Source: Strigamia acuminata | Taxonomy: Eukaryota > Arthropoda > Chilopoda > Geophilomorpha > Linotaeniidae | Reading direction: 5' to 3' | DNA: 64,000 nt | Assembly: GCA_949358305.1 (NCBI GenBank) | Contig: OX442315.1 | Span: forward strand, 2,232,001 to 2,296,000 | Part shown: positions 22,093 through 61,512 of the stretch, piece after piece | Layout of the letters: the number at the start of each line of letters is the position of its first letter | How positions within the stretch are numbered: the stretch's first letter is position 1 | Translations under genes and position numbers: made by a program | The notes under the pieces: generated by a model | Seen by the model: only the letters and a program-made list of their open reading frames with translations | The model's database searches: none | Told to the model about the DNA's origin: nothing

Positions 22093-22166
22093 TTTCTTTC
22101 GGTAATTCTACGATTTGGGTTATCTTATTGAGAGATCACAAGTTCAGATTTGAGATTTATTTCTAA

Positions 22167-22184: not shown

Positions 22185-22186
22185 CG

Positions 22187-36470: not shown

Positions 36471-37042
36471 TGTCACGTGTACGAACCGTGCCAATTGATG
36501 CGCGATTCGTAGCACGTAATTCGAATCATTATTAGGTTAAATGTTGCTAAATTTCGGCCACAGATGGCGCTGACGGCTTGGACTCCGTCATCGCCATGTG
36601 ATGGACCGATCAATTCAATTATGGGGTTTATGGCAGATTTGCTATAAATAAGGAGCCCGCACTAAGACAGGTCTCTAATCACTTTTGCTTTTCAGAACTA
36701 GAGAGTCTGATGTCGCCTCAATAAAGAGCGCGGCTGATGACTATAAAACCAATTTAATTACATCGCAATTAAGTTATCACACAGTAGTTCATAACCCAAT
36801 TAATAAAGGTTGTACATTTGACAAATGTAAGAAGTGACAATTTATCCAAAATAACATTCTGACCTGTTGAGAATAAATGTATCTGAATTTATAAGGGATC
36901 GAACAAACTTTGTTTGTCCGGTCAAATAAATCTGAATTGAATTTAAAGCATAAATGAATCTCATTCTTTCCTTTCACACTCACTAAACCCCAATTAAACA
37001 TAGTTGCGTGGAGACCTGATTAGGCCCGGATTCCACGTAACA
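36471..37042 (+). repeat. 5' LTR of Gypsy D
   Basis: Starts TGTCACGTGTACG and ends CCACGTAACA. TATAAATA at 36643-36650 precedes a likely start in agcccgcactaagac. CCACAGATGGCGCTGACG at about 36559 is an insulator-like motif. Matches 44288-44859. Confidence 0.93.
36643..36650 (+). promoter_or_regulatory. TATA box of Gypsy D LTR
   Basis: TATAAATA, repeated at the same place in the 3' LTR (44460-44467). Likely core promoter for the D genomic RNA. Confidence 0.6.
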
Positions 37043-37044
37043 AA

Positions 37045-39432: not shown

Positions 39433-39503
39433 AATGGCCACAAAGACGAAATAACAAGAAGAAAAGAAGAAAGAGAAAATTAGAAATCATCGAGTTACAC
39501 GCT

Positions 39504-42500
39504 ATGGACGAACTTTTACAGATTCCAGTAGTATTAAATGGTATGGAAATCACTGGTGTCTTGGATTCTGGAGGTTTTCGCAATATCATTAGTGAAGATT
39601 TGGTGAGAACTCTGCAGCTCAAATATCAGCCTTGTCCAGGTGTTCGATTGAGAGTTGTGGATGGCTCATTGATAGTCCCAGAAGGAAAAACCAGGATTAC
39701 CATTGATGTTGGACAACAACAACACACCATCGACGTATTGATCGTTAATGGATTTGGACGCCACTTACTACTGGGAGATAATTTCTTAAGATCTGCAAAG
39801 TGTAAACTCGACTATGACCAACAGAAGATCTTTGTAGGCCCAAAAAATGAACAACAAGAAGTTTTCCCAATGTCAAAGAATTATACTGATGTAAACTACA
39901 TAGCCCGAGTTTTAAAACCGATAACAATTCCAGCATTACATGAATGTGTAGTTCCAATTAAAATTGCAAAGAAAGTAGATGATGAACTATTTATAGAACC
40001 ACTCAGTGGAGTAATTGATCGCTTTGGAGTAATTTGTTGCAAAACATTGACTAAATTCAGAAAAGGTGAAGGAGTTCTGCGAGTTGCAAATCCAACTAAA
40101 AAGACAATCTATTTAGGAAAAAACTCAGCAATTGCAAAGGCCTTTTATGTAATTGAGTCTGGCGTGCTTGATGAAAACAGAGTTAATCAATTTGACTTTA
40201 GCACGGCCATGGCGAATGACAACATGACGCCATCACAACAAGGGCTAATGTTGCGGTTGCTGGAGAAAAATTCGGATAGATTTGCGAAGACTGACAATGA
40301 TTTAGGCAGAGCTCATACGATTAAACATCGAATTGATACTGGAGATTCTCCTCCAATCCATTTACAACCTTATAGACGATCGATTAAGGAAAAAGAAATC
40401 GAGGATGCTGAAACAAAGAAGTTACTTGAGCAAGGAGTCATTAGAGAATCTGAGAGCCCATGGAGTGCACCAGTACTACTCGTCAAGAAAAGAGACGGCA
40501 AATGGAGATTTTGTGTTGATTGGAGACGGTTAAACGCGGTAACAAAGAAAATGGTTTATCCCTTACCACGTATTGATGACACCCTAGATCAATTAGCGGG
40601 TGCGAAGTATTTTTCAATGATGGATCTTATCCAGGGATATCACCAAGTCGAAATAGACGAACAAGATCGTGAAAAGACAGCGTTTACCACGTCTAGTGGA
40701 CATTATGAGTTTAATGTCCTTGGAATGGGATTATGTAACAGCCCGGCCGCCTTTCAAAAATTGATGAACAAAGTACTTGGTAACCTCCTGGGAAAAGTAT
40801 GTATTGCATATCTGGACGATTTGATAGTGTTTTCGAAGACTTTCGATCAGCATCTTGTTGATTTGGAGGCAGTTTTCCAAAAGCTTAGAACAGCGAATCT
40901 CAAAGTCAAACTGAGTAAATGTACGTTTGCGACACACACCATACGATATCTCGGACATGTGGTTGATGCTGAAGGTATTTCACCGGATCCCAGGAATCTG
41001 GATTCAGTAGCTAAGTTTCCAATTCCTGTGAACGTTAAACAACTACGTGGTTTTTTAGGATTATGCTCGTATTACCGGAAATTTATTAAAGGTTTTGCGG
41101 ACATTTCCAAACCTCTGGTGAATTTAACCAAAAAGGATGAAAAGTTTGACTGGGGACCACCCCACGACAAAGCATTCCACACGCTCCGAAATGCATTAAT
41201 AACAGTGCCGGTGTTAGCGCATCCAGATTTTACTCAGCCCTTCATGATTTCATGCGATGCAAGTGCCTATGGATTAGGAGCTATTTTGAAGCAAAAAGTC
41301 AACAATCAAGAGCGTGTTATCGCTTATGCAAGTCGTATGATGAGCACAGCAGAAATGAATTACACTGCAACTGATAGGGAAATGTTAGCAATCATTTTTG
41401 CTATTGAAAAGTTTAGACCGTACTTATATGGACAGAAATTCCAAATTATTACCGACCATTCTGCCCTCCAATGGCTGAAAGGAGTCCGAAATCCAAATGG
41501 ACGTCTAGCCAGGTGGGCGCTGCAATTAGCTGAGTATGATTTTGAAATATTTCATAAAAGCGGCAAGAAACATACAGATGCCGATGCTTTAAGTAGGATC
41601 CAGGAAGAATTAAGTGAAGAAGAAATAGAAAAATTACCTTCGCTTTTCTTAGAAAACTTGGACCTCCCTGTTGAACAGAGGAAGGATCCCAAATTACTGG
41701 ACCTCATAACAGCGCTAGAAAACCAAGAGCAACTTCCAAGAAAAAGAAGACGACCACTAAAGCAGTTCGTTCTTCAAAACAAAACATTGTTCAGGAAGAA
41801 AAAACTTAACAGTTCCCTGAACATGGAAGATTTATTACTAGTAGTTCCAAAACAACTTCAAAAAGATGTATTGTATGAAATGCACGATGGATTACTAGGA
41901 GCTCATTTGGGATTGGCAAAAACGTGGAAACGAATAAGAACACGATTTTTCTGGACAAGAATCTATAAAGATGTTAGAAATTACGTCTTGTCCTGCCAAC
42001 ACTGCGCAAAAGCAAAAACAATGACAACGCCAGCTAAAGGATTAATGCAGCCATGGTCAACAGTCTCAAAACCTTTTGAGCGAATTGGAATAGACACACT
42101 AGGACCATTTCCATTGTCACGACTTGGAAATAAACATGTTTTTGTTGTAACTGATTATCTTTCTAGAAATGCAATAGCTAGACCAGCAGCAGCAGCTACA
42201 GCGTTAGAAGCAGCAAAAACATTGCTTTATGAAGTTATTCTGAAAGAAGGCAGTCCGAGAGAAATCCTAAGCGACCGTGGAACGGAATACAGGAACAAAA
42301 TGGTTGAGGAGGTCTCAAATATGTTTAAAAGTTTGCATAAAACTACGTCAGGATACCATCCAAGAACAAATGGATTAACTGAGAGATTTAATGCGACATT
42401 CGCAAAAATGTTGCAAAGTTACGTCAATGATGAACACACTGACTGGGACGAATTTCTTCCATTTCTCCTGTTTTCATATAACACGGCCGTTCATGAAACA

Positions 42501-43229
42501 ACAGGATATACACCACACTATTTACTTCGTGGATATGATGTGGATTTGACAGTAGATGTTAATTTGGACTTGCCACAGAAAGAATATACATTAAGAACAG
42601 CAAAATTCATTCGAGCAGCCAGGAAAATTGCAAATGAGAGACTTGAAAAACAATCTGCAAAAAGTAAGAAAAGATTTGATGAAGACAGAGTCAACAAAGA
42701 ATTTGAACCAGGTGAATTGGTTTATCTAAAAACCATCAACAGAAAAGTTGGCCTGTCAGAGAAGCTTTTACCCCAATTTTCCGGCCCGTATGAAATTGTG
42801 CGAAGAACTGCACCTAATGACTATGAAATCATCAATTCTACAAGAAAGAAAAGTGACATAGTGAATGTAGAAAGGTTAAAACCATATAAGGAACGAATTG
42901 AAGAAGAAATAGATGAAGTTCTGAAAGATATGCCAGAAAAGAAAGTGAAATTTGCTGATAAAGTGAAAAAAATCAGTAAAAAAGGTGAAATTGTAGTTGA
43001 AAACACAGAAAAACTAGTGAGAACAACGAAAATTAAGCCAAAAGAACGTTATATAGATGATACAGAACAGATTTCTCTAAAATCACTATTTGAACCACAG
43101 CCTACGGTGAAAACGAATGAAAATCAACTTCAAAACCCGCCACTAGATGGCGCAAGTCCACAAACCAACGATTTCCGGTCGCGCAGACTCAGACCGCGTA
43201 AGCGAAAAGACTATCGCCATTTCTACTGA
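39504..43229 (+). CDS. Gypsy D Pol: protease, RT, RNase H, integrase
   Basis: In the -1 phase to gag and open upstream through the heptamer, so the ATG at 39504 is probably internal to a Gag-Pol. Protease motif VLDSGGFRNII (21-24 DSGG rather than DSGA), RT with FCVDWRRLNAVTKK and YLDD at about 436-439, RNase H (SCDASAYGLGA, TATDREMLAIIFAIEKFRPYL), integrase zinc finger (H-H-C-C through CQHCAKAK), DDE core (IGIDTLGPF, LSDRGTEYRN, NGLTERFNATF), and a GPY/F-like C-terminus (FSGPYEIVRR). 1,241 codons, no disruption. Very close to element C pol. Confidence 0.95.
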   Translation: MDELLQIPVVLNGMEITGVLDSGGFRNIISEDLVRTLQLKYQPCPGVRLRVVDGSLIVPEGKTRITIDVGQQQHTIDVLIVNGFGRHLLLGDNFLRSAKCKLDYDQQKIFVGPKNEQQEVFPMSKNYTDVNYIARVLKPITIPALHECVVPIKIAKKVDDELFIEPLSGVIDRFGVICCKTLTKFRKGEGVLRVANPTKKTIYLGKNSAIAKAFYVIESGVLDENRVNQFDFSTAMANDNMTPSQQGLMLRLLEKNSDRFAKTDNDLGRAHTIKHRIDTGDSPPIHLQPYRRSIKEKEIEDAETKKLLEQGVIRESESPWSAPVLLVKKRDGKWRFCVDWRRLNAVTKKMVYPLPRIDDTLDQLAGAKYFSMMDLIQGYHQVEIDEQDREKTAFTTSSGHYEFNVLGMGLCNSPAAFQKLMNKVLGNLLGKVCIAYLDDLIVFSKTFDQHLVDLEAVFQKLRTANLKVKLSKCTFATHTIRYLGHVVDAEGISPDPRNLDSVAKFPIPVNVKQLRGFLGLCSYYRKFIKGFADISKPLVNLTKKDEKFDWGPPHDKAFHTLRNALITVPVLAHPDFTQPFMISCDASAYGLGAILKQKVNNQERVIAYASRMMSTAEMNYTATDREMLAIIFAIEKFRPYLYGQKFQIITDHSALQWLKGVRNPNGRLARWALQLAEYDFEIFHKSGKKHTDADALSRIQEELSEEEIEKLPSLFLENLDLPVEQRKDPKLLDLITALENQEQLPRKRRRPLKQFVLQNKTLFRKKKLNSSLNMEDLLLVVPKQLQKDVLYEMHDGLLGAHLGLAKTWKRIRTRFFWTRIYKDVRNYVLSCQHCAKAKTMTTPAKGLMQPWSTVSKPFERIGIDTLGPFPLSRLGNKHVFVVTDYLSRNAIARPAAAATALEAAKTLLYEVILKEGSPREILSDRGTEYRNKMVEEVSNMFKSLHKTTSGYHPRTNGLTERFNATFAKMLQSYVNDEHTDWDEFLPFLLFSYNTAVHETTGYTPHYLLRGYDVDLTVDVNLDLPQKEYTLRTAKFIRAARKIANERLEKQSAKSKKRFDEDRVNKEFEPGELVYLKTINRKVGLSEKLLPQFSGPYEIVRRTAPNDYEIINSTRKKSDIVNVERLKPYKERIEEEIDEVLKDMPEKKVKFADKVKKISKKGEIVVENTEKLVRTTKIKPKERYIDDTEQISLKSLFEPQPTVKTNENQLQNPPLDGASPQTNDFRSRRLRPRKRKDYRHFY

Positions 43230-44287
43230 TTTTGTCTACGGTGAACGCGAACTAATAGCGTGACCCGGAAAACAAGAACTTCCGACATTTAAGTTGACAT
43301 TTTGTGTTTGAAATTGTGTTACAAAAGGTTGTGTAAGTGTGTTAAATAATTATAGGTGATTTTTTTGGAATGAAATGTGAAGTTTTAAACGTTTTTATAA
43401 GCGGACTGCGCGAAACGAAACTAATCGCGATCTTCGTCGATTTGCTTTGAATTTTTATAGCATTTAATAAGTTAGATAAAATTTTGAAATAATTTGAAAT
43501 TGAATTTAGTAGTGTAATAGTTTAATTTAAAAATAGTTTTAAAGAATAAATTGGAAAAATTTAATTTGAATAATGCGAATTGACTGAGGACGCGAGTGGA
43601 ATCTATCGCGAATTTTGCTTGAAAATATAATGTGTTGAAAATTTTGATAAATTTAATGTAAATATTTCACAGCATAATTTTGATTGAATGTTAGAAGGAG
43701 TTAATTATTGTAAATAATTGAAATAAGTTGATGTTTTAACGGTATTGTTAATTTTAAAGAAAATTAGAGAAATAGGAAAAATATTTTTTGAATTTGTTTA
43801 TTCCCATTTTGGAAAATTGTTAAGAGTTGTAATTTATTATGAAAATGCTTGTTTTTTAATGTGAATAGTTTTGAATATTGAGTGACAGAATAATTTATAT
43901 TTATTTTTCATCTTGTTTTAATTTAAAATGTGAACTTTGATTTTGATAATTTAATTTTGACAAAATTTTCTTTTGACTTACGTTTTTTTGTTAGACTTTT
44001 CAAATATGTAAAGATGAACAATGGAAAAGCAAATATTGTATTAGTGATATTAAGTTAGTTTAAGTTGAATTATTTTATGATTTGATCAGAATGGTAACAT
44101 TGGAATAAAAGGGAGTAAAGTTAACTCCAGAATAATTTAAGTTTGTGTGATAACTATGAAACAGCTGAGTGATAACTTATGAAAGGTAGAAATAGCCGAA
44201 CATTCCTTAAGAATGTCCGATTTAAAAGACACCTGTCTGGTATCGAAATTTGTATTTTGGGGTCCAAAACACAGCAAAAAAGGGAGT
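43230..44287 (+). other. Gypsy D 3' non-coding region
   Basis: AT-rich, with no supported ORF. It ends in caaaaaagggagt before the 3' LTR, a weak polypurine tract. In C the equivalent interval is about 1.1 kb longer and holds the C48 protease ORF. Confidence 0.7.
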
Positions 44288-44859
44288 TGTCACGTGTACG
44301 AACCGTGCCAATTGATGCGCGATTCGTAGCACGTAATTCGAATCATTATTAGGTTAAATGTTGCTAAATTTCGGCCACAGATGGCGCTGACGGCTTGGAC
44401 TCCGTCATCGCCATGTGATGGACCGATCAATTCAATTATGGGGTTTATGGCAGATTTGCTATAAATAAGGAGCCCGCACTAAGACAGGTCTCTAATCACT
44501 TTTGCTTTTCAGAACTAGAGAGTCTGATGTCGCCTCAATAAAGAGCGCGGCTGATGACTATAAAACCAATTTAATTACATCGCAATTAAGTTATCACACA
44601 GTAGTTCATAACCCAATTAATAAAGGTTGTACATTTGACAAATGTAAGAAGTGACAATTTATCCAAAATAACATTCTGACCTGTTGAGAATAAATGTATC
44701 TGAATTTATAAGGGATCGAACAAACTTTGTTTGTCCGGTCAAATAAATCTGAATTGAATTTAAAGCATAAATGAATCTCATTCTTTCCTTTCACACTCAC
44801 TAAACCCCAATTAAACATAGTTGCGTGGAGACCTGATTAGGCCCGGATTCCACGTAACA
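44288..44859 (+). repeat. 3' LTR of Gypsy D
   Basis: 572 bp, TGTCACGTG to CACGTAACA, same as 36471-37042. Followed by TSD gtag. Confidence 0.93.
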
Positions 44860-48331: not shown

Positions 48332-50224
48332 TTGTTCCATCCCCCAGAAGTAACTAATGCTACATCGGAGATTTTATTTATGGATGTAGACACAACTTGT
48401 CTTGAAATAGCCACTAGTCATAGTGGCGGAGTAGATGAGAACTTGCAAGAAATGACAGAACAATTAAAAAATCTGACATTATTTCCTCACAAGTGCTACA
48501 CGAAGAAATTCTGTAGACTTCGCCGACTCAACAGAGTCATAGGTGGTAATAATTTGCACAATATTACTTTGGGTAATAATAAAGATGATCCTCGAATGAA
48601 GATCACAATTGGTGGACTCACCTACAACGCGCTCATGGATACAGGAGCATCTCAATGTTACATTGGAGAACAACTTTTGTCTGAAACTCAGGCTCTGCCA
48701 GAATTCTTACAAGAAGCTCCCAGAAACATGTTGGTTAACGCTGTAGGCGTAGCACACAAGCCTGTCGGACAAATAACTTTGTGCGTACAGTGGGCTGATG
48801 AATTTACGCCAATGAATTTCATCGTTTTAGCAAAACGAGTTTGTGGCTTGATATTGGGTCACAATTTCATGCGTAGGCAGAAGATCAGCCCACACCCCCA
48901 CCTCCAAGAGTTCTCTTGTGCAGATAAACCCAATTGGTCCGCCCCTTATGAGTTGGAAGAAACCAATTTGGCCCTTGCCCCGTTGAATCGAATTACTTTC
49001 GAGTATTTAGAAAGTCTAACGACTGCAGTTGACTCAATCGAGCTAACAGACACTCCCGTGTTACCATGGGATGAGAAATTAGTTGAGGAGAGCGACTGCA
49101 CTCCAGAACAACGACTAGCACTTCGCGAAGTGATCAACGCGATACCAAATGTATTTCGTGATCAAGTTGGGTGCACTAACGTGACTCAGCATCGAATCAA
49201 GTTCAAAGAAGGGCATTCATTGCCCAAAATGCAGTATAGAATGTATAACCCGGCCAAGAGAGCCATCATGACCAAACTTGCTGCAGAACTTGAACAGGAT
49301 GGACTTATTGAAAAAGCCAAAGGGCCATTTATAAGTCATCCAGTCATTGTTGCGAAGCCTGACGGCTCGTATAGGATGTGCATCGACTACAGGTGGCTAA
49401 ATGCCATCACCGAAGTCGAAGTAATACAAATGCCAAGTATTGACCTTTTATTGCATAATACTGGTCCTGCTAGGTATTTTACGTCAATCGACCTTGTCAA
49501 AGGTTACTACCAAGTCGAGATGTGTAAAGAAGATCGTCCAAAGACGGCATTTTATACGCCAAATGGTCCATATCAGTTTGTGCGAATGCCGTTTGGCCTT
49601 TGCAATGCGCCTTGTACTTTCCAGCGTCTGATGGAAGGCATTTTAGGCTCAGCTTTACAAGACTACGCGTTAGTCTATTTGGATGACGTAATTGTATATT
49701 CAGATAATTGGGATGATCATCTCAAACACGTTCGAGATGTTCTAGAAAGGCTTAACCAAGCCAACATGACAATAAATAAAGCGAAATCTCGTTTTGGGCG
49801 TACAGAATTAAAATTCTTGGGCCACTGGATTAAACCCGAAGGTCTCTTCGGTGATCCCGATAAAATATCGGCGATTATGAAATTTCCCACCCCCACGTGT
49901 GCTAAAGACATTCAGCGCTTTCACGGCATGACTAACTTCTTCAGGAAGTTTGTTCCAAATCACGGAACTATTGCCGCACCATACACACGTATGATGAATG
50001 AGAAAACTCCATTTGAATGGGGAGATGAGCAGACAGAAGCGTTTAATAAAATTAAAGAGCTACTTTGTGGTGACAACTGTCTACACAAACCAGACATGAC
50101 TCTGCCGTTTGTCGTCATGACTGACGCCTCTCATGAAGGCTTAGGAGCTGTCCTTTGCCAAGACGTCGATATATTCGACGAAAAGAAGCAGAAAAACATT
50201 TCTGTACCCAGACCTGTAGCATAT
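48332..50224 (+). CDS. Gypsy B Pol, first part: protease and RT
   Basis: In the -1 frame to gag; its first listed codon is TTG, and the frame is open back to the heptamer, so it is made by frameshift. Protease NALMDTGASQCYI (DTGA about 103-106), RT with MCIDYRWLNAIT, MPFGLCNAPCTFQRLM and YLDD at about 449-452, then the start of RNase H (VMTDASHEGLGAVL) up to PVAY. The frame is cut at 50225 by the C LTR and resumes at 59236 in phase. Related to A pol. No internal stop. Confidence 0.93.
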
Positions 50225-50717
50225 TGTTACGCGGTAGAGCCGTACCGTGTATCGGCTGGCTCTGCTCGCTCTGTTTAGGCATTTAATGCAATGAATTCTC
50301 ACTAGACGGCGCTGTGCACCTAATTAGATGCACAGACCGTTCAACTTAGTTAATAGGGGGAATAGGAGTTTACTTAGTGAGTTGATTAAGCCAGAGAGCT
50401 CAGATCTCTTTTGAGTCTCAAACTGTTACCTTCACCTACTACTGCCAGCCGGTTGACGGTCAGGCAGGACTAGGTTTCCTAAACTGAATTGAATAAACAA
50501 CAGCATCATCCTTATTTGATTTGAATGAACCATTTATGTGTTTTAGGTTTAATAAATGAACAAATGTAATAAGAGCTGATGACCGAACATTTACATTAGT
50601 AAATGTCCGACTTTGAACAATAAAGCCAACAGGCATTTTACATATAAAACCCTGTGTCATTCTTGAGTGAATTCATGTCACGTAGGACTAAATCAATCCC
50701 CATTTAGCCACGTAACA
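50225..50717 (+). repeat. 5' LTR of Gypsy C
   Basis: TGTTACGCGGTAG to GCCACGTAACA, same as 58739-59231. Contains CACTAGACGGCGCTG (about 50300), a hairpin tgtgca/tgcaca (50313-50334) and AATAAA signals. No clear TATA box. Confidence 0.93.
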
Positions 50718-50719
50718 AC

Positions 50720-51262
50720 TGGTGGAGATGCGGTCTCGATTGTAGCCCGTTTAGATTTAAAATCCCATTAAAATTGGATTAAAATTGCCAAAATAATTTA
50801 ATAAAAATCTAGAAATAAAAACTTGAAAATTGCTGATTTTATAGCAATTATCTTGAATGACTCAGAGTTGGTAAAGATAAGTGAAGTCACAGCTTGAATA
50901 TTTAATGTCATTGTGTGAAATAATTTGCATTTTGGAAATGAAAATAGAGTTTAATTGTTTATTAGGGATTAATAAATTGATTTACAATTGTTATAATTGG
51001 AATAAATAAAATATATAGTGTATAAATACTAATTTTGATATTTATTTACAGGAAATTTTGTGAATTTATAGGAATTGAAAAAATTGTTTTGAAATGTTAT
51101 TGATGGATTATTTTCTTTGTAATTTTGAGTGTAATATTTATGTATTATATGCTAATAACACTTTAAGTTTTCAGGTAATGAATTCGTGTTAGTGTATTCA
51201 GTGTTTAGAAAGTGAATCAGTGCTAGTGAAAGTGATAAAAAGCGCAATATAAAGGCTTTAGT
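50720..51262 (+). other. Gypsy C primer-binding site and leader
   Basis: TGGTGGAGATGCGGTCTC at 50720-50737, sharing its first 10 bases with the D site; the tRNA is not identified. AT-rich leader with acceptor-like tttatttacag (AG at 51050-51051) and aagttttcag (AG at 51173-51174). Confidence 0.6.
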
Positions 51263-52594
51263 GTGGCTAAGCCAATAAAATTGTCGCAGTTCAATACGGA
51301 TAATCTTCAAGATTTACAAAATTGGGAATTGCCCGAACCGGATTTGAAATTTATCGCTACTAGAAAGAAAAGGAACACTGGATCTGAATCTGACACTGAA
51401 CCTCAGAAGGAAGATAGAGAAGTCCGATCTCAACCTCAATCAATCCTACAGAAGTTGGATTTCGCTACTCCGTTAATAAAATTAATTCCACAAAAAGGTT
51501 TAGAAGAAATAATAAAGACATTTACACCAGTAAAGACTAAACCAGTTCCAACACCAATTGAACCAAATTTTCCAAAAATGACATCATCACAGACTCCAAC
51601 GGACGTATTGACCGACTTATTGAAGAGTTTGGTAGTGCAGAAGCGACCTGTTGTCACTTATGATACAGAAAAGGGCAACATCGACCAATGGCTTGTGGCA
51701 TATGAAGCTACAATAGGAACAGATGATGAGAGGGTAAAACATCTAGCATTAGCCTTAAAGACTGATGGATTGGCATGGTTTGTGGAACAACTAAAGAAGA
51801 ATCCGACATGGAAATGGACGGATTGGAAACCACAGATCGAGAAAAAATTTAGAAGAAGCCAAGAAAATGTTTACAATACTCTCCACTTCATGAAACATAA
51901 AGAGGGTACAGCAGATGCCTTCATGAAGAAAGTCTTGGCCGAATGTGCGTTTATTCTACCAGAAATGACTGAAATTCAGAAAATAAATTATGTTTACCAA
52001 GGTTTGAAGCCTGCAATGCAGAAGATGATGATAACAGTATTTCCATCGACGTTAGAAGAAATGGAACAGAGACTTAAATTGTATGAAAGTCACAAAACAG
52101 AAGAACCAGCGGATCTACTGCTCACAATGTTCAAAAAAGTTGTAGATGAAAAGGTGAACCCTACGACAACAGGTATACTGTCTGGAATAGGGGGATCCCC
52201 AGTAAGCTACGCCGAGTTATTAGCTGAAAATATTAAATTAAAACAGCAAAAGCTCGTAAGTGAGTCAGTAGAGCCACAACAATCGGTTCCATTATTCATA
52301 CAAGGCGAGTGGTATATTCCAGCATCGCAGCGCGGACAGAACTTTAGAGGTAGATATAACAGAGGTAGACAACGGTCAAATAGCAGTCCGACAACAACGC
52401 GTTCATGTGGATGTTGGCATCGTTATGGTTGTGAACATAACACATCAGCGCCACAGGAGCAACAACCTCAAGAGAATAGAGGGAACCCAAACAACAAAAG
52501 GTGGTTTAAGAAGAAAAGGACACAAGGGGGTGGTAAAACTAACCCTAATCCTAAGCAGAACCCACAACAAGGTCAACAAGAAGAGGAAAACTAG
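51263..52594 (+). CDS. Gypsy C Gag
   Basis: Homologous to D Gag: GNIDQWLVAYEAT, LAWFVEQLKKNPTWKWTDWKPQIEKKF. The frame is open from 51239 but has no ATG until 51578; as given it starts with GTG (AKPIKLSQ). The roughly 105 codons before the first ATG match the position of a similar ATG-less stretch in D. The C-terminus is basic and Gly/Gln-rich (RGRYNRGRQRS) and has no standard CCHC knuckle. Ends GAG GAA AAC TAG. Confidence 0.86.
   Translation: MAKPIKLSQFNTDNLQDLQNWELPEPDLKFIATRKKRNTGSESDTEPQKEDREVRSQPQSILQKLDFATPLIKLIPQKGLEEIIKTFTPVKTKPVPTPIEPNFPKMTSSQTPTDVLTDLLKSLVVQKRPVVTYDTEKGNIDQWLVAYEATIGTDDERVKHLALALKTDGLAWFVEQLKKNPTWKWTDWKPQIEKKFRRSQENVYNTLHFMKHKEGTADAFMKKVLAECAFILPEMTEIQKINYVYQGLKPAMQKMMITVFPSTLEEMEQRLKLYESHKTEEPADLLLTMFKKVVDEKVNPTTTGILSGIGGSPVSYAELLAENIKLKQQKLVSESVEPQQSVPLFIQGEWYIPASQRGQNFRGRYNRGRQRSNSSPTTTRSCGCWHRYGCEHNTSAPQEQQPQENRGNPNNKRWFKKKRTQGGGKTNPNPKQNPQQGQQEEEN
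52585..52591 (+). promoter_or_regulatory. Degenerate -1 frameshift site of Gypsy C
   Basis: G GAA AAC before TAG, one base different from the canonical G GGA AAC at the same place in D. The -1 frame is open from 52555 into pol. A-site slippage is still possible; P-site re-pairing would have a mismatch. Confidence 0.5.
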
Positions 52595-55500
52595 TGGGTC
52601 GGCCACAAAGAAGATGTCACCATCAACAAGGAAGATGTTGTCATTCAAAGAAGAAAAGAAAAAGTAGAAAAGAAAAGATAATCGTAGTCAATATGAACAT
52701 TTCAGAATCTCTATTGGAAATTCCAGTAATAGTGAACAACATGGAAGTCAAGGCAGTTATGGACACTGGAGGAAAACGCAATGTTATCAGCGAAGAGCTT
52801 GCTGAAGCTTTACAGTTGAAGTACCCGCCAAGCCCAAATATACGATTACAAGGGGTAAGCGGAGAACTTGTGACTCCAATAGGAAAAACCAAGATGAACA
52901 TTACAATTGGTGAATTAACATACAGGATCGAGGTCCTGATTGTTAAAGGATTTCATTATGAATTACTGCTAAGTGACCCATTCATGCTGTTCGCGAAGTG
53001 TGTGTTAGACTACGACAAACAAAAAATCTTTGTGGGCCGAACTAGTGGAAAGGAAGTGTCATTTCCAATGAATAAAACTTTTGTTGATCAGAATTATGTT
53101 GCGAGGGTAATGAAAAACATCACTATACCACCAATGCACGAATGCATTGTTCCCATCTATTTGAATAAAGCAATAACATTGGACATGTTTGTGCAACCAT
53201 TGCATAATGTTACTGATAGATTTGCTGTGATAGGTTGTAAAACTTTGACAGATTTCAAGAATGGCAAAGGCATCATTCGAGTGGCTAACCCAACCAAGAA
53301 GACAGTCTTTCTGAAGGAGAAGTCAGCAATCGCAAAAGCTTATTATGTGGTTGATGTTGGGGTGTTTGATGAAAAACAGGTACACTGTTTTGACTTTGAC
53401 GCCTCAATAGCAAAAGACAAAATGAATAAAGACCAACAAGAGCAAATGCGACAACTTCTTCAAAAGAATCAAGACAGATTTGCTGTTTCTGACAAGGATT
53501 TGGGAAGAGTTCAAGTGTATAAGCATAAAATCGATACTGGAGACCATGACCCAATACATTTGCAACCGTATCGTCGTTCTATGAAGGAAAAAGAAGTCGA
53601 AGCTGAGGAAACAAAGAAATTGCTTGATATGGGAGTGATAAGGGAATCAGAAAGTCCCTGGAGCGCGCCTGTATTGCTAATAAAGAAAAGAGATGGTAAG
53701 TGGAGATTTTGTGTCGACTGGAGACGTTTGAATGCGATAACAAAGAAAATGGTGTACCCATTGCCAAGAATAGATGACACTTTAGATCAGCTGGCAGGTG
53801 CACAGTTCTTCTCCATGATGGACCTTATTCAAGGATATTATCAAGTCGAAATAGATGAACAAGATCGCGAAAAAACAGCATTTACCACTTCAAGCGGACA
53901 TTTTGAGTTTAACGTCCTAGGAATGGGATTATGCAATAGTCCAGCAGCTTTTCAAAAGTTAATGAACAAAGTTTTAGGCAACCTCCTAGGCAAAGTCTGT
54001 ATAGCGTATATTGACGACCTTATCATTTTCTCTAAAACATTCGATCAGCATTTGAAAGATCTAGACAACGTTTTCGACAAGCTAAGACAATCTAACTTAA
54101 AGGTGAAGTTGAGCAAGTGCACATTTGGGACAAACACCATTAAGTATTTGGGACATGTCGTGGACTCTGAGGGTATATCACCAGACCCTAGGAACTTGGA
54201 ATCAGTCGCAAAGTTTCCAGTTCCTACTAACCTCAAACTTCTTCGAGGATTCATAGGGCTCTGTTCGTATTACAGGAAGTTTATTCCAGGTTTTGCGGAC
54301 ATATCCAAGCCCTTAGTCAATTTGACGAAGAAGGACGAGAAATTCGATTGGGGCCCACCTCATGACAAGGCCTTTAAAACATTAAGGACCGCCCTTATCA
54401 CCGTGCCAGTGCTTGCGCACCCTAATTTTGAAGAACCCTTCATGGTATCGACTGACGCGAGCGCATATGGTCTTGGAGCAGTGTTGAAACAGAAGATAAA
54501 CAAACAAGAACATGTGATAGCTTATGCCAGTAGACTTCTCAGCCAAGCAGAACAGAATTACACAGCCACAGAAAGGGAATGTCTGGCTATTCTGTTTGGA
54601 ATTGAAAAGTACCGACCTTATCTGTATGGTAAGAAGTTCCAGATAATTACAGACCATTCGGCACTCCAATGGCTAAAATCAGTCAAAAACCCCAATGGCA
54701 GACTAGCTAGATGGAGCCTACAGCTAGTAGATTTTGATTTCGATGTGATCTACAAGAGCGGAAAAGCGCACAAAGATGCCGACGCCTTGAGCAGAATTCC
54801 AGAAGATTTAAGCGAGGAAGAAAACGAAATAGTTCCCTCACTTTTACTCGAACAGCTCGACCTTCCTGCTGAGCAGCGTAAGGACAAGAAGCTACTGGAA
54901 TTGATCACCGCAATGAATCAAGTAGAGCAACTTCCGAAGAAGAGAAGACGTCCTCTAAAGCAGTTCGTCCTTCTCGATAACGTGTTGTTTAGGAAGAAAA
55001 ATTCTTTGAATTCCCTAGACACGGAAGTAAATCTGTTATACGTTCCACAGCATTTGAAAACGGCCGTTCTTGAAGAAATGCATGATGGACTGACGGGTGC
55101 TCACTTGGGCCTAAACAAAACATGGAAGAGAATGAGAACAAGATTCTTCTGGCCCCGGATATATAAAGACGTTAGAAATTACGTACTTTCTTGTCCACAT
55201 TGCGCGAGCTCGAAATCAATGACGACAGCGCCAAAAGGTTTAATGCAGCCGTGGTCTACGATATCTAAGCCTTTCGAGAGGATTGGAATCGACACACTGG
55301 GAAGTTTTCCAACCTCCGAAAAGGGCAACAAGTATGTTTTCGTAATGACAGATTATTTGTCGCGGACAGTGATTGCTAGAGCAGCTCCAGCATCAACAGC
55401 GTTGGAAGCAGCTAGAACCTTGCTTTATGAGTTAATGTTGAAGGAAGGCAGTCCGAGAGAAATCCTGAGCGATAGAGGCACAGAATACAGAAACAAAATG

Positions 55501-56538
55501 GTGGAAGAAGTATCAAATATGTTTAAAGCCCTACACAAAACCACTTCAGGGTACCATCCAAGGACCAATGGACTTACTGAGCGTTTTAATGCGACGTTTG
55601 CAAAAATGTTGCAGATTTATGTTGATAAGGACCAGAGGGACTGGGATGATTTTTTGCCATTTTTGCTTTTCTCGTATAATACCGGTGTGCACGAGACGAC
55701 AGGATATACACCTTATTATCTTTTGAAAGGATATGAAGTTGATTTGAACGTGGACGTAAACCTCAACTTACCTCAAAAAGAATTTACCTTGCGAACCTCA
55801 AAATTCATCAGAGAAGCTAGGAAAATAGCAAATGAAAGGTTGGAGTGGCAAGGAGAAAAAAGCAGAAAAAGATTCGATCAAGGCCGAGTTCATGTGGAAT
55901 TTGACCCAGGAGAATTAGTATATCTCAAAACACCCAATAGAAAAGTTGGGTTAAGTGAAAAACTCCTACCACAGTTCTCAGGCCCATACGAAATAGTAAG
56001 AAGAACCGCGCCAAATGACTATGAAATTAGAAGCTCAAAGGGAAAGAAAACAGATATTGTTAATATTGAACGATTAAAACCGTATAAACCCAGAGAAGAA
56101 ATTCCAGCGGAGATATTAGAAGAATTGACGGCTAAAAAAGTCACATTTGCTGATGAAACTGCAACACAGAGTGAAAAACAACAAGAAATTGAAGAAAACA
56201 CGTCAATTTCGCCAATTCCGATCGCTAAAGAACGATTCATTAGCGATGACGACCAAATTTCGTTAAAAACACTCTTTGAACCTGAAGAAAATACAACAAA
56301 AGTGTCAAATTTCCCAATTCCAAGCGAAAAAGAGCGATTAAAAGCGCTCTATGGACCGAAAGAAATTATGGAAAGATGGCAAAACGAAGACGAACGGAAA
56401 AACAAAGAAAATCAATTGCGAAAACCGCCGACAGGTGTCGCTGACGCAGTCGATGACGCGTCGCCGCCTGAAATCGAGAGTTTCCGGTCACGTCGCCTTC
56501 GCAAACAGGCTCGTCGTGACTACAGTGGATTGTGTTAA
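52594..56538 (+). CDS. Gypsy C Pol: protease, RT, RNase H, integrase
   Basis: -1 phase to gag; the GTG at 52594 is just the first start-like codon, and the frame is open across the gag stop. Protease AVMDTGGKRNVI (DTGG at about 57-60), RT with FCVDWRRLNAITKK and YIDD at about 471-474, RNase H (STDASAYGLGAVL, TATERECLAILFGIEKYRPYL), integrase zinc finger (CPHCASSK), DDE core (IGIDTLGSF, LSDRGTEYRN, NGLTERFNATF), a FSGPYEIVRR C-terminal motif and a charged tail. 1,314 codons, no stop. Close to D pol throughout except the tail. Confidence 0.95.
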   Translation: MGRPQRRCHHQQGRCCHSKKKRKSRKEKIIVVNMNISESLLEIPVIVNNMEVKAVMDTGGKRNVISEELAEALQLKYPPSPNIRLQGVSGELVTPIGKTKMNITIGELTYRIEVLIVKGFHYELLLSDPFMLFAKCVLDYDKQKIFVGRTSGKEVSFPMNKTFVDQNYVARVMKNITIPPMHECIVPIYLNKAITLDMFVQPLHNVTDRFAVIGCKTLTDFKNGKGIIRVANPTKKTVFLKEKSAIAKAYYVVDVGVFDEKQVHCFDFDASIAKDKMNKDQQEQMRQLLQKNQDRFAVSDKDLGRVQVYKHKIDTGDHDPIHLQPYRRSMKEKEVEAEETKKLLDMGVIRESESPWSAPVLLIKKRDGKWRFCVDWRRLNAITKKMVYPLPRIDDTLDQLAGAQFFSMMDLIQGYYQVEIDEQDREKTAFTTSSGHFEFNVLGMGLCNSPAAFQKLMNKVLGNLLGKVCIAYIDDLIIFSKTFDQHLKDLDNVFDKLRQSNLKVKLSKCTFGTNTIKYLGHVVDSEGISPDPRNLESVAKFPVPTNLKLLRGFIGLCSYYRKFIPGFADISKPLVNLTKKDEKFDWGPPHDKAFKTLRTALITVPVLAHPNFEEPFMVSTDASAYGLGAVLKQKINKQEHVIAYASRLLSQAEQNYTATERECLAILFGIEKYRPYLYGKKFQIITDHSALQWLKSVKNPNGRLARWSLQLVDFDFDVIYKSGKAHKDADALSRIPEDLSEEENEIVPSLLLEQLDLPAEQRKDKKLLELITAMNQVEQLPKKRRRPLKQFVLLDNVLFRKKNSLNSLDTEVNLLYVPQHLKTAVLEEMHDGLTGAHLGLNKTWKRMRTRFFWPRIYKDVRNYVLSCPHCASSKSMTTAPKGLMQPWSTISKPFERIGIDTLGSFPTSEKGNKYVFVMTDYLSRTVIARAAPASTALEAARTLLYELMLKEGSPREILSDRGTEYRNKMVEEVSNMFKALHKTTSGYHPRTNGLTERFNATFAKMLQIYVDKDQRDWDDFLPFLLFSYNTGVHETTGYTPYYLLKGYEVDLNVDVNLNLPQKEFTLRTSKFIREARKIANERLEWQGEKSRKRFDQGRVHVEFDPGELVYLKTPNRKVGLSEKLLPQFSGPYEIVRRTAPNDYEIRSSKGKKTDIVNIERLKPYKPREEIPAEILEELTAKKVTFADETATQSEKQQEIEENTSISPIPIAKERFISDDDQISLKTLFEPEENTTKVSNFPIPSEKERLKALYGPKEIMERWQNEDERKNKENQLRKPPTGVADAVDDASPPEIESFRSRRLRKQARRDYSGLC

Positions 56539-56953
56539 GGTTTTCTGAGACGAACCGGGTTTACTGTGTGACTCAAAGAAACCTAAAGCATTAATAACAG
56601 CAGCAGTTGATTTGTGTGTGATTCCGTAAGTGAAAGGAGTGGATTTTGAACGAATTTGGCGAACAAATAGCTTAAAAACGAAACGAATTTATCGCGAATT
56701 TTGTGAGAAAATAACATCGCGAAATGGAAATTTAGGCTTAAATAATTGTGTTAAATCTTCAAAATGAAATTTTAGTGTGTGCATATATTATCAAGTGACT
56801 AATTAGTTGAAAAATTGTTAAATTTAGTGTAATTTAGTGCAACATGAAATGTTATATGAAATAATGAATGGAAATTGGAATAATTTTGTGAATATTTTGA
56901 ATTAATGAATTAATTTATTTTATTTTCTTTTCAAATAATATATTAGAATCCGA
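56539..56953 (+). other. Pol to ORF3 interval of Gypsy C
   Basis: AT-rich, no gene. It ends ttttcttttcaaataatatattag 7 nt before the ORF3 ATG, which could serve as a 3' splice site for a subgenomic mRNA. Confidence 0.45.
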
Positions 56954-58327
56954 ATGGACGAAATGGCAAGCAAATTTGATCGGATGGATGTGCGTAGTGA
57001 CAGTGACAGCGATGCGGATTCGGTTTGCTCGATGCAAGTGGGCGATCTTTTGGAACGTCAACTTAAGAAAGGCGATGACTTGGAAATTTATTTAGCAAAT
57101 AAGCCGAGCACAAGTAAAACTTTGGACGAATTGGTTAACTGCCCACGCCCGTTTACAGAAGGAAAACAAAAGGCGGAGGAAGACAAAAAGAAATATGCAG
57201 GACCATTAACAAAGGGTGAAGAAGGCTTATTGCGTCGTCGTCGTAAGAATCGACAATTGAAACGAGATAAGAAAGCACAAAAGAAGAAAGTGTTTGACGA
57301 GCAATCAAAAAGAATCCGGGAAGAAGAAATGCGTCACACCGTTGATCGAAACAAACGCCGATTAAATGATTTGCGAATGGAGCACCGGAATATGGTCAAC
57401 GCCATTAGAGCCAGGAAATTAAAAGGAGTGATGGGATTGCCCGACTATCAGTTGTGGAGAACAGGGGCGAATGCTTTGCTGATCCAGGAGGCGAAAATAA
57501 GAAAAAATATTTTAAAAGCCATCGCCCTAGCGAGAAGAGAGTCCTTCCAGGACCCTAGTGTAGTATTTCCTACTCCTATACGGGTATACCGTGTGGAGTT
57601 GGACGCTGCACGACAGGTCCAGGCTCTCGGACTTGCATTAGACTATAGTAATGCGCCAAAATATGACTTAGCATTCGACGCCGTGGGTTGTCCGCCGATT
57701 AAAGTCATGAACTATCAGATGGCAGCATTAGGCGATCTAACGCCGGGACGACAGAGCTGGACGTATGACAGCGTCGTTGATCACTACCTCCAACTGTTAG
57801 AAGAGCGATATCCCATATTGGCACCAATTCAATCTGAGTGGGTCTTCAAAATGGTAGACCCAGCTAAACGAAAAGAAGCGATCTATTGGCTAATGAAGAG
57901 ACTTCCAAGTGCTCAAAAGAAGATTTGGGTGTTTCCAGTTCCTATTGAAGAGCATTGGCAGCTTTTCATAGTGGATTGGCGGAAAAAGCCAACCCAATAC
58001 GTGCTTTACGACCCAAGCGGACCAATAGAGCGCACATATCCAAAGTGGGAATCTTTAAGATACTCGTTGATGGATGCAGGAGTAAAGTTTCCAAACAAAT
58101 TCATACGTTGGGACCCGCCACGTATGCACCAATTGGATAATGACAGCTGTGGCCCAACCATACTCTACTTCACTAGAAGATATGTTGAAGACCGTGACTT
58201 AATGCAGTTTGGGGAGCCGTGTGAGTTACGCTTACGATTTGTGTACGAGATTGCAAATCGTGAAATTCTCCCATTCGAATTGATCAAGGAAGAAGATAAG
58301 AAGGATCAAGCGGAAGGAGGAGAGTGA
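56954..58327 (+). CDS. Gypsy C ORF3: Ulp1-like (C48, clan CE) cysteine protease
   Basis: ATG at 56954, 457 aa. The N-terminal half is charged: an acidic Ser/Asp stretch (about 12-25), then a basic Lys/Arg-rich helical region (about 70-145; GLLRRRRKNRQLKRDKK). The C-terminal half (about 255-440) has the full clan CE signature: EEHWQLFIVDW with His334, VLYDPSG with Asp353, and MHQLDNDSCGP with Gln393 and Cys399. The Gln-to-Cys spacing of six equals that of yeast Ulp1. The family cleaves SUMO or related conjugates, or viral polyproteins. In the cell it could remove SUMO from host proteins or process the Gag of the element; both are inference. It lies between pol and the 3' LTR, on the same strand, inside the TSDs. 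D lacks it. Open along its full length, so probably selected. Confidence 0.9.
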   Translation: MDEMASKFDRMDVRSDSDSDADSVCSMQVGDLLERQLKKGDDLEIYLANKPSTSKTLDELVNCPRPFTEGKQKAEEDKKKYAGPLTKGEEGLLRRRRKNRQLKRDKKAQKKKVFDEQSKRIREEEMRHTVDRNKRRLNDLRMEHRNMVNAIRARKLKGVMGLPDYQLWRTGANALLIQEAKIRKNILKAIALARRESFQDPSVVFPTPIRVYRVELDAARQVQALGLALDYSNAPKYDLAFDAVGCPPIKVMNYQMAALGDLTPGRQSWTYDSVVDHYLQLLEERYPILAPIQSEWVFKMVDPAKRKEAIYWLMKRLPSAQKKIWVFPVPIEEHWQLFIVDWRKKPTQYVLYDPSGPIERTYPKWESLRYSLMDAGVKFPNKFIRWDPPRMHQLDNDSCGPTILYFTRRYVEDRDLMQFGEPCELRLRFVYEIANREILPFELIKEEDKKDQAEGGE

Positions 58328-58738
58328 AGTGAACTTTAACTTCTTTAAGTGAATAAGTGTAAAATCAACACGAACTTTGAACATTTTTTTTTGTGTGTGT
58401 TTTTTTTTATTTTATAGAAAATTGAAAACTGGGAAAAAAAGTAATATAAAACAAAAAACCAAAAAGTGTTATTATTGATGAAAAGTGTTAATTTTATTTA
58501 ATTTTAAACTTTGAAAATTGTTTCCAATGTAAAAATGTAATAAAAAGTGACTATGACATTTATAAACATTGAAAAGTGTATCATATTATATTTTTGTAAA
58601 AATAAGGATGATGAAAAGAGATTCTCAAAATTGTAAAATTGAGTTTATGATTTGAATTTTTTTTTAATGTGAAAGGAGATGCGTTAGTTAGAACAATTCA
58701 TTGTTTTTCGAGAGACCGAAAAAATTAAAGGGGGGGGC
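58328..58738 (+). other. Gypsy C 3' non-coding region and polypurine tract
   Basis: AT-rich with several homopolymer runs, ending aaaattaaagggggggc directly before the 3' LTR. No gene seen. Confidence 0.75.
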
Positions 58739-59231
58739 TGTTACGCGGTAGAGCCGTACCGTGTATCGGCTGGCTCTGCTCGCTCTGTTTAGGCATTTAA
58801 TGCAATGAATTCTCACTAGACGGCGCTGTGCACCTAATTAGATGCACAGACCGTTCAACTTAGTTAATAGGGGGAATAGGAGTTTACTTAGTGAGTTGAT
58901 TAAGCCAGAGAGCTCAGATCTCTTTTGAGTCTCAAACTGTTACCTTCACCTACTACTGCCAGCCGGTTGACGGTCAGGCAGGACTAGGTTTCCTAAACTG
59001 AATTGAATAAACAACAGCATCATCCTTATTTGATTTGAATGAACCATTTATGTGTTTTAGGTTTAATAAATGAACAAATGTAATAAGAGCTGATGACCGA
59101 ACATTTACATTAGTAAATGTCCGACTTTGAACAATAAAGCCAACAGGCATTTTACATATAAAACCCTGTGTCATTCTTGAGTGAATTCATGTCACGTAGG
59201 ACTAAATCAATCCCCATTTAGCCACGTAACA
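58739..59231 (+). repeat. 3' LTR of Gypsy C
   Basis: 493 bp, same as 50225-50717 by eye. Followed by TSD atat. Confidence 0.93.
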
Positions 59232-59235
59232 ATAT

Positions 59236-61512
59236 GCAAGCAGAGTTTTACGTGGAGCGGAGAAACGTTATACAACGCCGGAACTCGAATGTCTCGCAGT
59301 CGTGTGGGCTATCGATCGATTTAAACCATATCTCGAATATGGTACGTTTACCTTGGAATCAGATGCTGAAGCACTGAAATGGTTGATGCGAACGCCTGAA
59401 CCATCTGGGAAATTTGGCCGATGGGCCTTAAGAATCCAATGTGGAAATTTTAAAATTGTTTTTCGAAAAGGTGCTGCTAATCAAGTTGCAGATGCACTTT
59501 CTAGAGCCCCACTAACAGAGGAAGACATTCCTCTTCGAGATCATGTGGAACCTGTCGAAATTAAACAATACTGGCCTGAATGGGACGGAAATCCTTCTGT
59601 TTCATTAAATCGTGCCCCAGAAAAACGAGAATTTTTGGCTAGTATGCGTTCCTATTTTTCAGAAAATTCTAAAGAATGTTCTGAAGAAAAGGAGGGGGAG
59701 GAAGTACAAGAAACCTTGTACAGTGCGTTGACTGAAGTTCTTAAAGAAGTCCCTCCTACAAGGAGAGAAATAATAGATGCTCAGTTGCTAGATACTGAAT
59801 GCAAACGCATTCGGGAATTTTTATTGAATGACAAGGTTGTTGGGATACCACAATCTGAAATAAAAGAGTGGAAAAACAAAGTCAAAAACTATTGTTTAGA
59901 CAAAAAAGAAGTTGATGGTGATCAAATGATCATCTATTTTAACCCTTCGTTCGAAGAGGAATTAAACGATTCGGGAAACGGCTTTAAAGCCGTTGTACCC
60001 AGTTCACTCGTAAAACGAGTACTCTTCGCTTGTCATGGCCACCCCCTAAGCGGTCACGCTGGGATGAGTAAGACTCGTTTAATATATTTCTGGCCTGGTA
60101 TGAGTAGAAGTGTCAGGAACTACGTCAAAAGCTGCACGCACTGTGCCCAGTACAAGCCTATTCAACAGAAAAGGCACGCAGCTCCTTACACACCGCATAA
60201 CATGACCAATCCTTGGGAATGTATTAACATGGACTTGATGGGCCCAAAACCCGCGGGAAGGTCCCAAAACCAGTATATCTTTGTCATTATTGACAATTGT
60301 ACCAAGTTCGTTGAAATTAAGGCTTTGACCAAAGCCACGAGCGCTAACTGCGTTCAAGAATTAAGATCTGTTACAAACAGATGGGGACACCCAAAAAAGA
60401 TTGTGAGCGATAACGGAAAACAATTTGTTTCCGATATTTACAATGAGTATTGCGAAATGTACAACATTTGCCCGTCTCATACGAGCACGTATCATGCCCA
60501 GGCGAACCCGACAGAGCGAGCCAATAGGGACATCAAAACCATGCTAGCTTTGTACACAGATGTGCACACGCAATGGCCACGTTATTTAGACGAATTCGCG
60601 TTCGCGATGCGAAATAATGTCTCAGCGGCAACGGGCTCAAGCCCAATGTTACTTAACACGGGGAGAATCGTAACATTACCCTTCGACCCCAGGATTATCA
60701 AACATGCTAATCCATTTGACAACAACAATCCAGAGAAATATGTCAGAGTACTATTGGATGTATTGCGCAGATCGCATCAAGAGATGCATCGCAGAATTCA
60801 ATTGAATTTTGAGCGGCATAGAAAAATACACGAACAAAAGTTCGTAATTACGGAGTTTGAAGTTGGAGATTTAGTTTGGAAACAAACTCACATTCTCTCG
60901 TGCGCAGATAAAAATATTTCTGCTGGTTTCGCAGAGAAGAGAGATGGTCCGTGGGAGATTACTAAAGTACTTCCAGGCGGAGCGTATAAATTACGCAAAT
61001 TAGCTGATGGTTCGATTGAAAAATCAGTGAATATCAAAGCGTTGTATCCCTATACGCCCTCATACCCGATTGAGACTTGGAAAGTAGGACAAAAGTCCGC
61101 CTCTTACTCGCCTCAAGAAAATCCTAAATGGATGGACGAAAGTAATCAACTTCTGGATACTGAAGAAATGGAATTAATTCCTGAAACTTCCTCAGAAATT
61201 CCAATGGAATTAGCCGACTCAACTTCAGTGCAAATTGACAAATCTGCGCCCATTAAGTCTAAACATAGACATAGACAACGCTTAACAGCTATAGAAAAGA
61301 AAGCGGCGTTGAAAAGAGGTGAAATTCCAAAGAAACCACTTCGAAAACCCCGTAAACCCCAACCGGTAGTTCCTCGAACTAGCACTCGTCCAAGACGAGA
61401 GAAAAAACCTAATCCCAAATATTCGGATGAAAATTTCGTGCGAAATATTTCCGCAATATTTAAAAAGCCTTACCAACAACGAGGCAAACTTGCAAAGTTC
61501 TGTTGGAATTGA
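59236..61512 (+). CDS. Gypsy B Pol, second part: RNase H and integrase
   Basis: Resumes B pol in phase after the C insertion (PVAY then ASRVLRGAEKRYTTPELECLAVVWAIDRF). RNase H end (GAANQVADALSRAP), integrase zinc-binding (HGHPLSGHAGMSKTR, CTHCAQYKP), DDE core (INMDLMGPKPA, VSDNGKQFVS, NPTERANRDIK), and a basic C-terminal tail. 758 codons to TGA at 61512. Together with part one, about 1,389 codons without a stop. Related to A pol. Confidence 0.93.
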   Translation, partial: ASRVLRGAEKRYTTPELECLAVVWAIDRFKPYLEYGTFTLESDAEALKWLMRTPEPSGKFGRWALRIQCGNFKIVFRKGAANQVADALSRAPLTEEDIPLRDHVEPVEIKQYWPEWDGNPSVSLNRAPEKREFLASMRSYFSENSKECSEEKEGEEVQETLYSALTEVLKEVPPTRREIIDAQLLDTECKRIREFLLNDKVVGIPQSEIKEWKNKVKNYCLDKKEVDGDQMIIYFNPSFEEELNDSGNGFKAVVPSSLVKRVLFACHGHPLSGHAGMSKTRLIYFWPGMSRSVRNYVKSCTHCAQYKPIQQKRHAAPYTPHNMTNPWECINMDLMGPKPAGRSQNQYIFVIIDNCTKFVEIKALTKATSANCVQELRSVTNRWGHPKKIVSDNGKQFVSDIYNEYCEMYNICPSHTSTYHAQANPTERANRDIKTMLALYTDVHTQWPRYLDEFAFAMRNNVSAATGSSPMLLNTGRIVTLPFDPRIIKHANPFDNNNPEKYVRVLLDVLRRSHQEMHRRIQLNFERHRKIHEQKFVITEFEVGDLVWKQTHILSCADKNISAGFAEKRDGPWEITKVLPGGAYKLRKLADGSIEKSVNIKALYPYTPSYPIETWKVGQKSASYSPQENPKWMDESNQLLDTEEMELIPETSSEIPMELADSTSVQIDKSAPIKSKHRHRQRLTAIEKKAALKRGEIPKKPLRKPRKPQPVVPRTSTRPRREKKPNPKYSDENFVRNISAIFKKPYQQRGKLAKFCWN

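Follow-up and report, generated by a model that had tools for sequence, protein, structure and literature searches.

The window, that is, the whole 64-kb stretch of DNA analyzed, is rich in LTR elements as judged from Pfam searches. Among these we identified a Gypsy (Ty3) LTR retrotransposon of 9,007 bp (50225-59231), referred to as element C, the features of which are summarized in Table 1. Its two LTRs agree in 493 of 493 nucleotides and have TG...CA ends (TGTTAC...GTAACA); because they are identical, the insertion is suggested to be recent. In the Pfam searches, the domain order of pol was PR-RT-RNase H-INT, which is the Ty3/Gypsy order, and the integrase has an H2C2 domain, an Integrase_p58_C match above the cut-off, an SH3_Tf2-1 match just below it, and GPY in the translation. 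Element C is itself inserted in another Gypsy element, the pol frames of which flank it at 48332-50278 and 59302-61512. The initial annotation had placed a third open reading frame, ORF3, inside the TSD-bounded element and on the strand of its other genes. This was confirmed: ATAT is found on both sides of the paired LTRs, and ORF3 lies within element C, upstream of the polypurine tract and on the same strand as gag and pol. Element C is apparently an autonomous and intact Gypsy element (Ty3/Metaviridae) with a third gene in the env position.

Table 1. Features of element C and their coordinates in the window.
Feature	Position	Strand	Basis or remark
TSD ATAT, left copy	50221..50224	none
5' LTR, TGTTAC...GTAACA	50225..50717	+	identical to 3' LTR, 493 nt
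Putative primer binding site TGGTGGAGATGCGG	50720..50733	+	2 bases past 5' LTR; sequence
gag open frame, Ty3-capsid-like, weak	51263..52594	+	Pfam PF19259, E=0.0022, below cut-off
pol: aspartyl protease, reverse transcriptase, RNase H, integrase	52594..56538	+	Pfam; 69% identical to element B pol
A+T-rich spacer between pol and ORF3, 28% GC	56539..56953	+
Putative splice acceptor AG following pyrimidine-rich tract	56945..56946	+	home-made score
ORF3, 457 aa: N-terminal region with basic helix and C-terminal clan CE cysteine protease	56954..58327	+
Predicted long basic helix, residues 87-157	57212..57424	+	structure model, charge, motif
NLS-like RRRRKNRQLKR, residues 94-104	57233..57265	+	motif inspection
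C48-like catalytic domain, ~residues 254-440	57713..58273	+	phmmer against PDB; PF02902 below cut-off
Predicted catalytic His334 codon, motif HW	57953..57955	+	SENP1 alignment
Predicted catalytic Asp353 codon, motif YD	58010..58012	+	SENP1 alignment
Gln393 codon, oxyanion position	58130..58132	+	SENP1 alignment
Predicted catalytic Cys399 codon, motif CG	58148..58150	+	SENP1 alignment
Polypurine tract AAAGGGGGGGGC, adjoins 3' LTR	58727..58738	+	sequence
3' LTR	58739..59231	+
TSD ATAT, right copy	59232..59235	none

A second recent Gypsy element, element B, is found at 36471-44859, with 572-nt identical LTRs (36471-37042 and 44288-44859) and the TSD GTAG. The pol proteins of the two elements are 69% identical, and the gag proteins 38% over 300 columns. 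In element B, no counterpart of ORF3 was found in the interval from pol to the 3' LTR, where there is ~1 kb of A+T-rich non-coding sequence. Since this related element is without the gene, ORF3 was either gained in the line of element C or lost in the line of element B. Compared with the pol-ORF3 spacer of element C, the region following pol in element B gave at most a borderline match of 29 nt (score 38; highest score in 200 simulations, 39), and compared with the 3' UTR of element C it gave no match above chance (36 vs 50.5).

In neither gag frame (51263-52594 in element C and 37978-39432 in element B) was a CCHC zinc knuckle detected with Pfam (at E<=1 or E<=0.01). The first in-frame ATG is codon 106 of the open frame in element C and codon 114 in element B, and the gag leader of both may be spliced, or the upstream part of the frame may be untranslated. 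Another Gypsy element of the window, encoded on the minus strand (10140-23005), has LTRs that match over 819 nt (10140-10958 and 22187-23005) and pol at 14849-18880. Its 1,046-aa frame at 18952-22092 has only a weak zinc-knuckle match, and an 885-aa frame following pol (11006-13663), for which Pfam gave no match at E<=0.01, could likewise be a third ORF. In addition, a Copia pol frame (23058-26279) shows a weak match to the methyl-CpG binding domain PF01429 just before RT (residues 490-545, E=4.6e-4, below the cut-off), possibly by chance.

ORF3 as a gene

ORF3 (56954-58327, +) is open for 457 codons. The longest stop-free run between the pol stop and the 3' LTR is 462 codons (81 on the reverse strand), and the longest run obtained in 2,000 first-order Markov simulations of this stretch was 245 codons, which rules out ORF3 as a chance ORF. 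The nearest in-frame stop on the 5' side is the codon at 56936, and the ATG at 56954 is therefore near the start of the frame. The GC content by codon position is 0.537/0.365/0.45, with the first position highest, a pattern shared with gag and pol, while the leader, the pol-ORF3 spacer, and the 3' UTR of element C have 23-28% GC. The codon usage of ORF3 correlates with that of pol at r=0.76 and with that of gag at 0.63, compared to 0.87 between gag and pol. A tblastn search of the window with ORF3 (E<=1) returned only ORF3 itself.

The candidate splice acceptor is located 7 nt 5' of the ORF3 ATG and has the top score, 16, of the 673 AGs in element C; several others in the element score 15, and 17 of the 3,462 AGs scored across the window attain at least 16. 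In element B, the highest score in the interval from pol to the 3' LTR is 14. These scores are a simple measure of the pyrimidine tract, devised after the tract had been noticed. A donor-like CAG/GTAATG is found at 51172, 5' of gag, and together these putative sites suggest an env-style spliced mRNA for ORF3.

The predicted protein lacks transmembrane segments, with a maximum 19-residue Kyte-Doolittle mean of 0.72, and no env family was found in it with Pfam. The absence of a hydrophobic segment rules out an envelope glycoprotein of the errantivirus or insect endogenous retrovirus type. In the structure model, the basic helix has a mean pLDDT of 61-92 by block over residues 81-150 and of 46 over residues 151-160. 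Residues 80-160 have a net charge of +18, and the NLS-like cluster precedes the protease domain. The missing hydrophobic segment, the predicted basic helix, and the NLS-like cluster are more in keeping with a soluble enzyme, which may be nuclear, than with an envelope. Searched separately, the N-terminal 233 residues matched nothing in Pfam (E<=10) and gave a single row in PDB (E=0.46).

The protease domain of ORF3

In a phmmer search of PDB sequences with full-length ORF3 (E<=10), 18 rows were obtained, the first 14 of which are chains of SENP1, SENP2, Ulp1, SENP5, and SENP3. The best match was SENP1 with E=2.2e-4, and with residues 234-445 alone it was matched at E=6.8e-5. In six of the 14 SENP/Ulp1 rows (five of SENP1 and one of SENP5) the matched stretch passes Cys399; the other eight end short of it and hence support only the His-Asp half. 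SENP8, SENP6/7, bacterial deubiquitinases, and adenain are absent from the 18 rows. The alignment with SENP1 covers ~175 residues with 25.9 bits, in one stretch, which passes by itself (i-Evalue 1e-4). The initial annotation had read His334, Asp353, Gln393, and Cys399 as catalytic positions of the right order and spacing. All four are indeed present, and His334 (HW), Asp353 (YD), and Gln393 and Cys399 (Q-x5-CG) are collinear with SENP1, spacing included, in what we take to be the catalytic motifs of that enzyme. ORF3 Trp269 is aligned to a Trp of SENP1; two Trp positions presumably make up the Gly-Gly tunnel of the SENPs. The four-residue pattern, derived from ORF3 itself, occurs once in the six frames of the window.

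The Pfam results were weaker. No family was matched by full-length ORF3 at E<=1, and the profile of the C48 family, PF02902, which the initial annotation had named as a check, was found with trimmed pieces, chosen after the full-length search had missed, at E 0.014-0.027 (14.7-15.7 bits, below the cut-off of 20.7), in a match that includes Cys399. PF03290 (Peptidase_C57) came second at E 0.13-0.22, and these two, both of which we take to belong to clan CE, were the only families for the trimmed domain at E<=10. A clan CE profile was thus matched, below the Pfam cut-off. Neither PF02902 nor PF03290 was found in the other window ORFs (19 scanned of 24 of at least 150 aa, at E<=1 or E<=0.01).

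When the domain was reversed as a control, the search of PDB returned 11 rows, every one of them a designed TIM barrel. Their whole-sequence E-values went as low as 2e-7, below that of the true SENP1 match; whole-sequence E-values can mislead with such repeat-built designed chains. The control contained no stretch that passes alone. The SENP1 match differs from it because one stretch does so, because five different SENP/Ulp1 proteins are matched, and because the catalytic residues are in register. The catalytic domain was poorly modelled by AlphaFold2 from the single sequence (mean pLDDT 44.8 for full ORF3 and 40.4 for the domain), and a Foldseek search with the low-confidence ORF3 model gave 290 matches at E<=10, none at E<=0.001, with a best E of 0.31.

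By sequence, it is well supported that the C-terminal half of ORF3 encodes a cysteine protease of clan CE, closest to SENP1/SENP2/SENP5/Ulp1. Both the PDB and the Pfam ranking place SUMO proteases, not viral maturation proteases, as its closest relatives. The proposal of a Ulp1/C48-type protease ORF in an apparently intact Gypsy element was thereby upheld, with SUMO proteases as the nearest solved relatives. Transposon genes are often reused, and the fold could in principle have been kept as an adaptor that binds SUMO or Gag without catalysis mattering. We consider this most improbable, as the four catalytic positions are intact and the Q-x5-C spacing is that of SENP1.

Protein relatives of ORF3 were not found elsewhere, either with the full-length sequence among 7,997 candidates scored (E<=1e-3) or with residues 215-450 among 916 candidates (E<=10), two sets from which records of the window's own genome were possibly left out. 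Searches of viral contigs and prokaryote genome contigs gave no ORF3 relatives, and that of the viral contigs none of element C pol. In contrast, 2,039 of 7,988 scored proteins were relatives of element C pol at E<=1e-10, the best 120 of these 2,039 being 35-52% identical. Among the matches listed, many of which are unnamed, the named relatives are mostly from the pseudoscorpion Cordylochernes, with others from spiders (Trichonephila, Araneus), a tick (Amblyomma), Daphnia, a frog, and a plant. An arthropod host is likely; the insect host implied in the initial annotation was not confirmed, as the named relatives are mostly arachnids. By eye, PF02902, PF00770, and PF03290 are missing from the best 120 of the 2,039, a comparison in which a separate ORF3 would not appear.

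LTR elements can transduce host sequence, and ORF3 might be a passenger, a cellular SENP-like sequence captured once by this copy or subfamily that contributes nothing to the element's life cycle. Only one ORF3 copy is known here, the related element B is without the gene, and the GC3 (0.45) and codon usage of ORF3 are somewhat unlike those of gag and pol. However, the frame and the four catalytic positions are intact in a copy with zero LTR divergence, and ORF3 is flanked by a spacer of its own and by the polypurine tract, with the acceptor-like site a few nucleotides 5' of its ATG. The large distance from SENP1 (25.9 bits) also suggests a long history apart and not a recent capture, although the same picture would result if the captured gene had already diverged. 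We therefore regard a mere passenger as rather unlikely.

Possible role of the ORF3 product

The reading that we favour, tentatively, is that ORF3 is an accessory deSUMOylase-type protease of element C. The protein would be translated from a spliced subgenomic mRNA, via the acceptor 7 nt 5' of its ATG, in the manner of retroviral env, and the basic helix would direct it to the nucleus or chromatin. Once there, it could deconjugate SUMO, or a related modifier, from proteins of the host silencing machinery, as the initial annotation had suggested, or else from Gag or integrase of element C itself, which would raise expression or integration of the element. With an arthropod host, the most plausible arena would be SUMO-dependent co-transcriptional silencing in the piRNA pathway. 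In the excerpts of PMC13195609, transcriptional silencing by the piRNA effector Panx in a tethering assay in fly ovarian cells requires its SUMOylation, and a SUMO-Panx fusion is cleaved by endogenous deSUMOylating enzymes. As silencing by Panx needs SUMO and SUMO-Panx is cleavable, a retroelement deSUMOylase is plausible as an anti-silencing factor. With a SUMO-protease-like enzyme encoded in place of env, an LTR retrotransposon would be able to act catalytically on a pathway that serves its host in chromatin silencing.

Clan CE also includes deubiquitinases, deneddylases, and viral maturation proteases, and homology therefore does not imply that ORF3 is specific for SUMO. Several Ub-like modifiers are targets of clan CE enzymes, and the substrate of ORF3 might carry ubiquitin, NEDD8, or another modifier; the enzyme would then remove degradation tags from Gag, integrase, or RNA-protein particles, or alter repair after integration. 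Such a role would have a parallel in the Ginger1 transposases, which carry OTU or Ulp1 domains and have been linked to ubiquitin/SUMO control in the available part of PMC2836005. On the other hand, the clan CE matches in PDB are to SENP1, SENP2, SENP3, SENP5, and Ulp1 only, which is a hint rather than a test, and we judge another modifier to be unlikely.

The initial annotation had also suggested that ORF3 might process Gag. A particle-maturation protease like adenain or poxvirus I7, cutting Gag at Gly-Gly-like sites, would agree with the second Pfam match, Peptidase_C57 being the family of vaccinia I7. In addition, LSGIGG, at gag residues 306-311 of element C (52178-52195), is the only match in its gag and pol to the patterns tried, which we take to be of adenain type as applied here, and it is absent from the gag of element B. 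One short motif is weak evidence, the sequence matches are to SUMO proteases with adenain absent from the PDB rows, and pol has an aspartyl protease of its own. As this protease is retained (PR in the Pfam searches), the C48 domain is not needed to replace it in maturation. Replacement of the retroviral protease by ORF3 is thus unlikely, Gag processing has become less likely than first proposed, and a maturation protease is a very improbable explanation for ORF3.

For the favoured accessory deSUMOylase, a more far-reaching version would be that an arthropod Gypsy lineage has replaced, or never had, an envelope and carries a nuclear deSUMOylase, made from a spliced mRNA, by which SUMO is removed from the host transposon-silencing machinery. 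We consider this full scenario possible, on the doubtful side. If true, ORF3 would be a retrotransposon-encoded, catalytic anti-silencing factor.

Comparison with known systems

ORF3 resembles Ulp1/SENP (MEROPS C48, PF02902) in the collinear His, Asp, Gln, and Cys, and these enzymes are its nearest solved relatives. The SENPs consist of a variable N-terminal region and a C-terminal catalytic domain, and ORF3 has the same layout; it differs in being retrotransposon-encoded and in that its PF02902 match is below the cut-off. Animal Gypsy elements are usually seen as either envelope-less or provided with an envelope gene. Short accessory genes are also known in Gypsy elements according to the available part of PMC11952523, where the envelope-less MDG1 group is described with the accessory genes sORF1 and sORF2. 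These short ORFs are located 5' of gag, sORF2 is a transmembrane fusogen-like protein, and the same part of that paper mentions neither a protease nor SUMO.

A non-envelope enzyme gene after pol, as in element C, is found in the bdelloid rotifer LTR elements Vesta and Juno (PMC5408684, in part). Their ORF3 enzymes are different, a GDSL esterase/lipase and a DEDDy exonuclease, and C48 is not mentioned in the accessible text of that paper. The giant Burro Gypsy elements of planarians likewise carry domains of the ubiquitin/SUMO and apoptosis systems (PMC6431247, in part). Unlike element C, they have a SUMO-like domain, among others, in a giant polyprotein, and no C48 protease is mentioned in the excerpts of that source. 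No report of a C48 domain in an LTR retrotransposon was found in the literature searched, which consisted of open-licence text, seen in part, without Repbase, so that a precedent is possible. The term "C48" in the excerpt of PMC8127270 is a treatment label and not a protease domain.

C48 domains are found in other classes of mobile elements. The initial annotation had listed certain DNA transposons, to which the nematode non-LTR elements NeSL and Utopia-1_TSP (PMC4640811, in part) can be added. Ginger1 elements are DNA transposons with an OTU or Ulp1 domain in the transposase, which in the available part of PMC2836005 the authors link to ubiquitin/SUMO control of transposition and repair. They resemble element C in that a Gypsy-type integrase occurs in the same mobile element as a Ulp1 (or OTU) domain (PMC2836005, same part). 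However, as far as that part describes them, they are cut-and-paste elements with TIRs, with Ulp1 fused to the transposase and without RT, whereas element C has LTRs, gag, RT, and a separate ORF3; its LTRs, RT, and separate ORF3 rule out that element C is a Ginger1 transposon. Mutator-like elements with Ulp1 are likewise mobile elements with a C48 domain but, according to the same excerpts, DNA transposons (PMC2836005). NeSL and Utopia-1_TSP are, like element C, retrotransposons with a Ulp1-like cysteine protease domain; in the accessible text of PMC4640811 they differ in being non-LTR elements of nematodes with the domain located N-terminally in the protein. As C48 domains have already joined Mutator, Ginger1, and NeSL/Utopia (PMC2836005 and PMC4640811, both in part), their independent acquisition by an LTR element would suggest that control of Ub-like modifiers has been advantageous repeatedly.
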